Assembly (NCBI RefSeq): GCF_013185065.1
Contig: NZ_JAAVTO010000021.1
Coordinates: 1-40,808 of the forward strand
DNA from: Adlercreutzia sp. ZJ473
GTDB taxonomy: Bacteria; Actinomycetota; Coriobacteriia; Coriobacteriales; Eggerthellaceae
DNA length: 40,808 nt
Direction: 5' to 3'
The notes beneath the pieces are model-generated. The model had not been told where the DNA came from. It made no database searches and saw only the letters and a program-made list of their open reading frames with translations. Of this stretch, positions 2,496-13,857 are shown in pieces (position 1 is the stretch's first letter; every line of letters starts with the position of its first letter). Both the position numbers and the translations under genes were made by a program.

Positions 2496-3551
2496 ATGAA
2501 CCAAGACAAAGAGAAGATGCTCAAGCTCACGACCGACCAGATCGAGTCGAAGTTCGGCAAGGGCTCCATCATGAAGCTCGGCGAGGGCGGCGCGGACCTC
2601 AACATCGGCGTCATCCCCACCGGCGCGCTCCCGCTCGACGCGGCGCTCGGCATCGGCGGCGTGCCGCGCGGGCGCATCATCGAGATCTACGGCCCCGAGT
2701 CCAGCGGCAAGACCACGCTCGCGCTCCAGATCTTGGCGGAGGCCCAGGCCATGGGCGGCATCGTCGCCTTCATCGACGCCGAGCACGCGCTCGACCCCGT
2801 CTACGCCGCGCGCCTCGGCGTCGACATCGACGAGGTCCTCATCTCCCAGCCCGACACCGGCGAGCAGGCGCTCGAGATCTGCGACATGCTCGTGCGCTCA
2901 GGCGCCATCGACTGCGTGGTGATCGACTCGGTGGCGGCGCTCGTCCCGCGCGCCGAGATCGAGGGCGAGATGGGGGACACCACGGTCGGCCTGCAGGCGC
3001 GCCTCATGTCGCAGGCGCTGCGCAAGCTCGCCGGCTCGCTCTCCAAGTCGAACACCACGTGCATCTTCATCAACCAGCTGCGCGAGAAGATCGGCGTCAT
3101 GTTCGGCAACCCCGAGACCACCACGGGCGGCCGCGCGCTCAAGTTCTTCGCGAGCGTGCGCATCGACATCCGCCGCATCGACTCCATCAAGCAGAGCGGC
3201 GAGATCGTCGGCAACCGCGTGCGCGCCAAGGTCGTCAAGAACAAGGTGGCGCCGCCGTTCCGCCAGGCGGAGTTCGACCTCATGTACGGCGAGGGCATCT
3301 CGCGCGAGGGCTGCATCATCGACATGGCCGTCGAGTGCGGCGTCGCGAAGAAGAGCGGCGCGTGGTACACCTACGGCGAGGAGCGCCTCGGCCAGGGGCG
3401 CGAGGCGGCGAAGAACACCCTGCGGGAGAACCCCGACATGCGCGACGAGATCGAGCGCAAGGTGCGCGAGGCGTTCGACATCCCGGTCCTCGACCAGAAC
3501 CTCGGCGAGGACGCGGCCACGCCGCTCCCGAAAGACGGCAAGCGGAAGTAG
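2496..3551 (+). CDS. recA: Recombinase RecA
   Basis: RecA forms filaments on single-stranded DNA, drives homologous strand exchange and triggers LexA self-cleavage. The 351-residue length is normal. The Walker A site GPESSGKTT lies near residue 68, and the loop containing [14 protein letters not shown] and the ETTTGG segment are typical. The start is preceded by AAAGGAG. recX follows 9 bp downstream, the usual pairing. The promoter holds an SOS box, so induction by DNA damage is expected. Nothing is odd about the protein. Confidence 0.98.
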
Positions 3552-12272: not shown

Positions 12273-12317
12273 CTGTAAGGCGGGTGCGCTTTCGAGATGC
12301 GCTCGCCCGCCTTACAG
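12273..12317. terminator. Bidirectional terminator between hflX and lexA
   Basis: CTGTAAGGCGGG (12273–12284) and CCCGCCTTACAG (12306–12317) form a perfect 12-bp stem; inner bases can extend it. It begins right after the hflX stop and includes the lexA stop codon, so it can serve both convergent transcripts. There is no long T run on either side. Confidence 0.75.
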
Positions 12318-12944
12318 CCTGCGGAACACCGCCACGACCTTGCCCGCGATGGAGCAGTCGCTCACGATGATGGGATCCATGCTGGAGTTCTCAGGCTGCA
12401 GCCTGATGTGGTCCTTCTCCTTGTAGAAGCGCTTGACCGTGGCGCCGTCGTCGACGATGGCCACGACGATGTCCCCGTTGTTGGCGACGGGCTGCTCCTT
12501 CACCACGACGTAGTCGCCGTCGTTGATGCCGATCTCGATCATGGAGTCACCCCGCACCGAGAGGAGGAACGACGGCGCGTCCCCCACGATGTCCGTGGGC
12601 AGCGTGATGGTGTCGGTTATGTTCTCCTGTGCGAGGATGGGCGTGCCGGCCGCCACGTCACCCACGAGGGGAACGTCGACGACCTTGCCGAAGCTCGGCG
12701 TGATGATGTTGGTGGCCTCGTCCTCGAGCGGATAGGTGAGCGCGATGGAACGCGACTTCAGCGGGTCGCGCTTGATGTAGCCCTTCTCCTCAAGCGCCTT
12801 CAGGTGCACGTGGACGGTGGAAGGGGAGGAGAGGCCCAGGGTCTGGCACACCTCGCGGACCGTGGGGCCATAGCCCTTTTCCCGAATACAATCCTCGATG
12901 CAGCTGAGCACTGCCTGTTGGCGTTTCGTGATCTTCTGTGCCAT
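12312..12944 (-). CDS. lexA: SOS repressor LexA
   Basis: LexA represses damage-response genes and cleaves itself when stimulated by RecA filaments. The 210-residue protein has a winged helix DNA-binding domain (about 8–68), the Ala99–Gly100 cleavage site in VAAGTP, catalytic Ser134 in RGDSM and Lys171 in VKRF. The ATG at 12944 is chosen because AGGAAGG lies upstream; a longer frame to 13025 would run back through the SOS boxes and promoter. It is divergent from a small membrane protein gene and probably autoregulated. Confidence 0.97.
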   Translation of the reverse strand: MAQKITKRQQAVLSCIEDCIREKGYGPTVREVCQTLGLSSPSTVHVHLKALEEKGYIKRDPLKSRSIALTYPLEDEATNIITPSFGKVVDVPLVGDVAAGTPILAQENITDTITLPTDIVGDAPSFLLSVRGDSMIEIGINDGDYVVVKEQPVANNGDIVVAIVDDGATVKRFYKEKDHIRLQPENSSMDPIIVSDCSIAGKVVAVFRRL

Positions 12945-12962: not shown

Positions 12963-13031
12963 GAACAAATGTTTTAAAAAGGTATTGACATGAACTTTTG
13001 TTCGACCTATTATATCCACGAACAAAGGTTC
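12963..13031. promoter_or_regulatory. Divergent lexA / small-protein promoters with three LexA-type boxes
   Basis: Three GAAC-N4-GTTC boxes are seen: 12963–12974 (GAACAAATGTTT, one mismatch), 12992–13003 (GAACTTTTGTTC, perfect) and 13020–13031 (GAACAAAGGTTC, perfect). On the + strand TTGACA (12985–12990) and TATTAT (13008–13013) are 17 bp apart with the second box in the spacer. On the minus strand TTGCGT and TATAAT (+ positions 13009–13014) are 18 bp apart with the third box in the spacer. The two -10 elements overlap almost completely, so one LexA-occupied region can silence both genes. Confidence 0.88.
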
Positions 13032-13056
13032 TACGCAAGACCTGGAGGGAAGAAAA

Positions 13057-13323
13057 ATGAAGAATCTTGAGATGAACTACCCTGTGGAAGGCACATCCGC
13101 TCTTCGTTTGGCCCCTGAGAGCACGCCCGTGCGCTGTGCGCGCATCATCAGCTTTCCCGGAAAAGGCGACGGGGCCATGCCTCGCGAGGCGTCCGCGGCC
13201 TCAGACCCCGCGCAAGCTGCGGGCTCGCTCGCCGGGCTTCCGTTCAACCGGTTCACGCGCACCCAGGTGATCGTCGCCTTCACGGCGGGCATCCTCATGA
13301 GCGTCGCCGCGCTCGTCCTCTAG
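13057..13323 (+). CDS. Small tail-anchored membrane protein divergent from lexA, predicted SOS-induced
   Basis: The 88-residue product has a soluble N-terminal part (about 1–66) with no recognised domain and one membrane segment at the very C terminus (about 69–88). It has a strong ribosome site (GGAGGG) and a near-consensus promoter holding a LexA box. Genes divergent from or next to lexA in Gram-positives often encode SOS division inhibitors (YneA in Bacillus, Rv2719c in Mycobacterium, DivS in Corynebacterium). I see no LysM domain and the membrane segment is at the opposite end from YneA, so homology is not shown; a similar role is inference from position and control. Confidence 0.7.
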   Translation: MKNLEMNYPVEGTSALRLAPESTPVRCARIISFPGKGDGAMPREASAASDPAQAAGSLAGLPFNRFTRTQVIVAFTAGILMSVAALVL

Positions 13324-13407: not shown

Positions 13408-13857
13408 ATGTACTGCCCATCATGCGGATACGCTGAGTCAAAGGTCGTTGACTCCCGGTCAGCTGAAGAAGGAGCGTCTATTCGCCGTCGGCGCGAGTGC
13501 CTTGCGTGCGCGCATCGCTTCACCACCTACGAGCGCCTCGGCGAGAACCCCATCATCATCATCAAGTCCGACGGCTCATCTGAGGCGTTCGACCGCCAGA
13601 AGCTCATGCGCGGCCTGCTCATCGCCTGCGCGAAGCGCCCCATCTCACCCGAGCAGATCGACGGGCTCATCTCGGGCATCGAGGGCGACCTGAGATCCTC
13701 GCCGCGCACTGAGACGCGCTCGAAGGACCTCGGCGACATGGTCCTCGCGCGCCTCGCGAACCTCGACGACGTCGCCTACATCCGCTTCGCCAGCGTGTAC
13801 AAGGACTTCCAGAGCATCGAGGAGTTCGCCCAAGCCCTCAAGGAAATGAATGCGTAG
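13408..13857 (+). CDS. nrdR: Transcriptional repressor NrdR
   Basis: NrdR represses ribonucleotide reductase genes in response to ATP/dATP. The zinc ribbon uses Cys3, Cys6, Cys31 and Cys34, and an ATP-cone domain fills residues about 46–136. The 149-residue length is typical. The start at 13408 has AAGGAG at good distance; the frame extends 13 codons further upstream without support. dut follows closely, so two nucleotide-pool genes are paired here. Confidence 0.95.
   Translation: MYCPSCGYAESKVVDSRSAEEGASIRRRRECLACAHRFTTYERLGENPIIIIKSDGSSEAFDRQKLMRGLLIACAKRPISPEQIDGLISGIEGDLRSSPRTETRSKDLGDMVLARLANLDDVAYIRFASVYKDFQSIEEFAQALKEMNA

Follow-up and report, generated by a model that had tools for sequence, protein, structure and literature searches.

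An 88-amino-acid protein encoded next to lexA in the window, by which we mean the whole analysed stretch of 40,808 nucleotides, is probably (roughly two chances in three) a LexA-repressed, LysM-less orthologue of the SOS inhibitors that would hold back septation by docking its membrane helix on the divisome, plausibly on FtsW. The role as an SOS division inhibitor is considered likely because of the descent and the control of the gene. Its reading frame starts with ATG, occupies positions 13057–13323 of the plus strand and is preceded by what reads as a strong Shine–Dalgarno sequence (GGAGGG, 13044–13049, plus strand). It is located between the divergent lexA (12315–12944, minus strand), whose product shows the Peptidase_S24 and LexA DNA-binding domains in Pfam, and nrdR (13408–13857, plus strand), the conserved downstream neighbour in an arrangement that we refer to as the lexA-X-nrdR slot.

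As the earlier note had described, the protein encoded divergently from lexA has 88 residues and one membrane segment at its C-terminus. Using AlphaFold2 and a family alignment of 23 rows we obtained one confident helix at residues 68–87 (pLDDT 97–98) and no structure for residues 1–60, and hydropathy also predicts a single membrane helix. Because the sole confident helix is C-terminal and residues 1–60 are unstructured, we predict a tail-anchored protein, and according to this model its N-terminus would be inside with essentially nothing outside the membrane. The N-terminal motif (GTSAL...ARIISFPG in the window protein) is thereby predicted to be cytoplasmic; its consensus in the family is YPVxGTSAL...AxIIxFP, with M1, A15 and L16 being invariant and G12, I31, F33 and P34 nearly invariant. 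A juxtamembrane motif, roughly L-x-x-G-x-x-x-G ahead of the helix, is present in 29 of 60 long members compared to 1.4 expected by shuffling. The long members from Eggerthellaceae carry a positive average net charge on the cytoplasmic side and only 0–8 residues beyond the 18-residue helix core, in contrast to 70–96 residues in LysM forms. The lack of LysM and the tail-anchored layout claimed in the earlier note hold as well, since the protein has no match in Pfam, NCBIfam, PHROGs or the PDB sequences, its helix is C-terminal and the host genome shows no LysM match at E 0.01. The latter also rules out for this genome that LysM has been relocated to another gene, and a loss via frameshift or sequencing error was ruled out as the gene stops at the helix, with nrdR coming next, in dozens of loci.

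LexA control of the gene is strongly supported by the sequence of its promoter. The −35 element TTGACA (12985–12990) and the −10 element TATTAT (13008–13013) on the plus strand are separated by a spacer of 17 nt containing the perfect GAAC-N4-GTTC box GAACTTTTGTTC (box 2, 12992–13003), in line with the near-consensus promoter and the perfect spacer box named in the earlier note. Two more boxes beyond its list were found, namely the perfect box GAACAAAGGTTC (box 3, 13020–13031) and GAACAAATGTTT (box 1, 12963–12974), which matches in 11 of 12 positions with one mismatch. Box 3 lies inside the spacer of what is probably the lexA promoter, reading leftward, for which we propose TTGCGT (13033–13038, minus strand; its GCAA is conserved in relatives) as −35 and TATAAT (13009–13014, minus strand), overlapping the −10 of the 88-aa gene, as its partner. 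The two promoters are therefore read here as facing each other with the −10 region in common. In the complete genome of 2.63 Mb only 11 GAACN4GTTC sites are present, two of them at this promoter, and a reversed-pattern control, although made of other k-mers, gave 75 matches against these 11 perfect palindromes, which might at most hint at avoidance of the palindrome across the genome. All three boxes at the promoter are of the AT-rich-spacer form GAACNWWNGTTY. A LexA-type box (CAAACAGGTGTTCG, 2420–2433) is also found in the promoter spacer of recA (2496–3551) in the same window, and the motif is therefore supported as a LexA operator. Induction of the 88-aa gene upon DNA damage is probable, and no SOS or LexA studies in Coriobacteriia or Eggerthella lenta were found in the literature searched.

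To find homologues adjoining lexA, as the earlier note had suggested, we searched the genomes of the class and also read the DNA upstream of lexA directly. The family alignment gives matches in 62 genomes out of the 396 from the class, and 59 of these belong to the window's own family, which is Eggerthellaceae by named loci (with Adlercreutzia sp. ZJ176 as the closest relative that has a name). Every convincing match in a direct search for the 88-aa protein adjoins lexA. This also applies to a set of 11 loci (ten relatives and the window), in which nrdR follows the homologue in all but one and mostly three boxes with a spacing of 28–29 bp are present. Upstream of lexA a single-helix ORF was identified in 85 of 97 distinct Eggerthellaceae loci, so that homologues do accompany lexA in this family, and none of the lexA-upstream ORFs from the 97 loci showed a LysM signature. 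The gene is absent in the other 12 loci, one of these being uncertain. The −35 adjoining box 2 is kept in 83 of the 85 loci with the gene and in one of the 12 loci without it (Fisher 9e-12, a value that overstates the evidence as the loci are related), and promoter and gene clearly go together. In nine loci (L092, L096, L098, L115, L151, L157, L159, L161 and L174) both the slot gene and its −35 are gone; several of them retain the remaining boxes and the lexA-side promoter, and in some nrdR has come nearer to lexA. As the family has lost the gene on more than one occasion, it is dispensable in Eggerthellaceae.

The position between lexA and nrdR, with dut following nrdR in the window, would also fit a protein acting from the membrane on the SOS circuit or on the nucleotide supply (LexA, RecA, NrdR or dUTPase), or a reading frame being just the leader of nrdR. 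We regard this as very improbable, as nrdR is retained in loci where the slot gene has been lost, proteins with a transmembrane helix (TM) and LysM occupy the same slot elsewhere and the selection at the amino acid level described below argues against a mere leader.

From its sequence and its location the 88-aa protein is best read as a positional orthologue of the LysM-type, lexA-divergent SOS inhibitors that has lost LysM, because the TM+LysM proteins of sister families share both the lexA-X-nrdR slot and the N-terminal motif. A helix followed by LysM is encoded in the lexA slot of deep Coriobacteriia and of the families f2, f4 and f10, the latter two of which we take to be Atopobiaceae-like and Coriobacteriaceae-like, and PF01476 was present in all six LysM-type slot proteins sampled. 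No LysM form was seen in the slot of f3 and f5–f9, and the LysM matches in the order derive overwhelmingly from f4 and f10 with only 12 genomes coming from the window's own family. Downstream of the slot gene, nrdR is found in 28 of 28 loci from f4 and f10 and, for almost every group, in the majority of its loci. The N-terminal motif is present in 55 of 74 Eggerthellaceae proteins, in 6 of 16 proteins from other LysM-less families and in 19 of 24 LysM proteins from f4 and f10, compared to 0.2–1.3 expected per group by shuffling (about 1 for f4 and f10); among the LysM forms outside f4 and f10 it was found in none of 17. One f4 genome (L216) retained the motif and lost LysM independently. Even in more distant Actinomycetota a TM+LysM protein adjoins lexA in 11 of 20 cases, four of them with nrdR directly after. 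In a rough LexA tree, whose bootstrap is unsettled, f2, f4, f7 and f10 fall together with the deep groups that carry LysM, and the remaining LysM-less families stand apart (96/87). Common descent with the LysM forms of the sister families is supported by motif and synteny, although indirectly for the shortest forms. The simplest history would start from a TM+LysM gene in the ancestor, which dropped LysM on the way to Eggerthellaceae and their neighbours, shrank further more than once and was lost repeatedly. Thus, the likely function proposed in the earlier note stands, but its "new" inhibitor is best read as having no separate origin; what is novel is that the domain binding the wall has gone and that the slot product has shrunk to 23 residues in some relatives.

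The slot proteins in Eggerthellaceae range from more than 150 down to 23 amino acids. Proteins with 45–48 aa consist of the juxtamembrane part and the helix only (L113, L114), those with 33–34 aa (L148, L149) match the tail-anchor profile with E 3e-6 and 3e-4, and a form of 23 aa is found in Adlercreutzia mucosicola, caecimuris, muris, equolifaciens and hattorii. The corresponding membrane-helix ORF of 23 codons (e.g. MARYEFPIAFALSTIASFVIFFA) in the lexA-nrdR slot of Adlercreutzia (L060, L067, L071, L072, L074, L077, L079 and L081) shares its operators and ribosome site with the longer slot genes and is under purifying selection at the protein level. Its pN/pS is 0.26 in frame, compared to values of 1.2 and 2.9 when the other frames are read. 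Variation is seen at codon position 3 in 20 of 23 columns and at position 2 in 5 of 23, and none of the next 40 columns past the ORF is identical throughout. Against the tail-anchor profile the 23-aa peptide scored at best 10.5 bits with 8.5 bits for the best shuffle, and because its scores are near those of shuffled controls, its kinship rests on position and promoter. Such genes are probably missed by standard gene calling. About 210 nt from lexA in the deep-branching family f13 (L231) we also observed an ORF for 43 aa with a single helix, which starts with GTG, lacks a clear ribosome site and is possibly an independent reduction.

Repeated shortening and gene loss within the family could also indicate a decayed remnant on its way out, whose helix reaches the divisome without stopping it, as the helix of YneA without LysM reaches midcell in B. 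subtilis and does not inhibit division (PMC13396833). However, the N-terminal motif is conserved with G12, A15, L16, I31, F33 and P34 being invariant or nearly so, promoter and ribosome site are conserved too and purifying selection acts even on the form with 23 codons, making decay an unlikely explanation. Also improbable is a change of function after the loss of LysM into a TisB-like, SOS-induced membrane peptide that lowers membrane energy or growth and thereby favours survival. A tiny hydrophobic helix, the SOS promoter, the forms of 23–34 aa in relatives and the missing extracytoplasmic domain would all suit such a peptide, but the conserved cytoplasmic and juxtamembrane motifs of the longer members would be unexpected for a bare pore peptide and the slot belongs to TM+LysM proteins with the plan of division inhibitors.

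Compared to the known SOS division inhibitors, the 88-aa protein is similar to ChiZ (Rv2719c) from Mycobacterium and the TM+LysM proteins from Actinomycetota in adjoining lexA and being under LexA control, and several of the latter loci have nrdR next as in the window. ChiZ also has the same plan of a cytoplasmic N-terminal part and one membrane helix, and both are presumed to take part in blocking division during the SOS response, but ChiZ carries an extracytoplasmic LysM, reported as apparently unnecessary (PMC3989709), whereas the 88-aa protein would end at the outer side of the membrane. YneA from Bacillus and Listeria is SOS-induced, adjoins lexA and has a single helix as well, yet here the helix is followed by LysM and both are needed, with the helix binding to TM7 of FtsW and LysM mediating the inhibition (PMC13396833). 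SosA from Staphylococcus, a SOS protein of 77 aa, adjoins lexA and also lacks LysM, but its layout is the opposite of a helix at residues 68–87 of 88, as an N-terminal helix (residues 10–30) is followed by an extracytoplasmic tail which is required (PMC6851548). DivS, the SOS division suppressor from Corynebacterium, is likewise encoded near lexA and reportedly lacks LysM (PMC6851548, PMC3989709) but is also reported to have an extracytoplasmic C-terminus; both DivS and YneA are set apart by description. The best analogue of the 23–34-aa forms is SidA from Caulobacter, a SOS-induced inner-membrane micropeptide of 29 aa that blocks division through FtsW (PMC4211646). The combination of a SOS promoter and a tiny single helix as in SidA is true by sequence for these short relatives; at 88 aa the window protein is longer, and its cytoplasmic part is conserved. 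No relation in sequence or locus is known between SidA and this family, and of the two FtsW binding has been shown for SidA alone.

For the 88-aa protein as a LexA-repressed inhibitor, we propose that LexA would repress the gene until RecA triggers the self-cleavage of LexA and thereby induces it. The C-terminal helix would then insert the protein into the membrane with its N-terminus inside and dock on a membrane protein of the divisome, delaying septation during DNA repair. Division inhibition is the most likely outcome, and the partner would most plausibly be FtsW by analogy to the reports on YneA and SidA, or alternatively a partner of FtsW, and the 88-aa protein would act on it in the plane of the membrane. 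The cytoplasmic motif and the juxtamembrane segment might replace the function of LysM or control the lifetime of the protein. By the same kind of analogy it speaks against this role that YneA reportedly needs its LysM and SosA its extracytoplasmic tail, as the Eggerthellaceae family has neither.

It is conceivable, even if we would bet slightly against it, that Eggerthellaceae possess a SOS checkpoint without any part outside the membrane, with the 23-residue peptide performing it in core Adlercreutzia by blocking septal wall synthesis. If this was true, a bare helix would be enough, the LysM requirement of YneA would not be general and a peptide of 23 aa would be even smaller than SidA. One slot with LexA operators offers a series from helix plus LysM via helix plus cytoplasmic part and the 23-residue helix to no gene at all, which is an evolutionary deletion experiment on the working part of SOS division inhibitors, for which LysM is reportedly needed in YneA and apparently not in ChiZ. 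With the 23-residue peptides one could address whether division can be stopped by a membrane helix on its own. For the Eggerthellaceae of the gut, among them Adlercreutzia and Gordonibacter, the 88-aa protein and its relatives would also provide a first candidate for a checkpoint responding to DNA damage.

The LexA regulon of the host genome was sampled by pattern matching only, and no other gene with a LexA box was obvious as a division inhibitor in this sampling. Five sites (L135, L138, L139, L142 and L143) were ruled out as LexA boxes as they are extended parS-like palindromes (TGTTTCACGTGAAACA, GAATGTTTCACGTGAAACATTC), which mimic the LexA pattern and are a trap for regulon scans. A LexA-type box is located ahead of rarA/mgsA (PF12002; G000:C89:6584–6595, L140), which judged from this site likely belongs to the SOS regulon. 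At L141 (G000:C108, about 1496–2261) the box-like sites AACAATAGTTC and GAACTTTTGTGC are found at a promoter-like stretch before an ORF for a HicA-like toxin, whose PF07927 match is just below the cut-off, and its HTH partner, and the pair is a possible SOS-linked toxin-antitoxin system. The perfect box GAACAAATGTTC at L016 (G000:C25:20645), with a TATACT resembling a −10 element nearby, precedes an ORF that encodes about 290 aa and has no match in Pfam, possibly a novel SOS gene.
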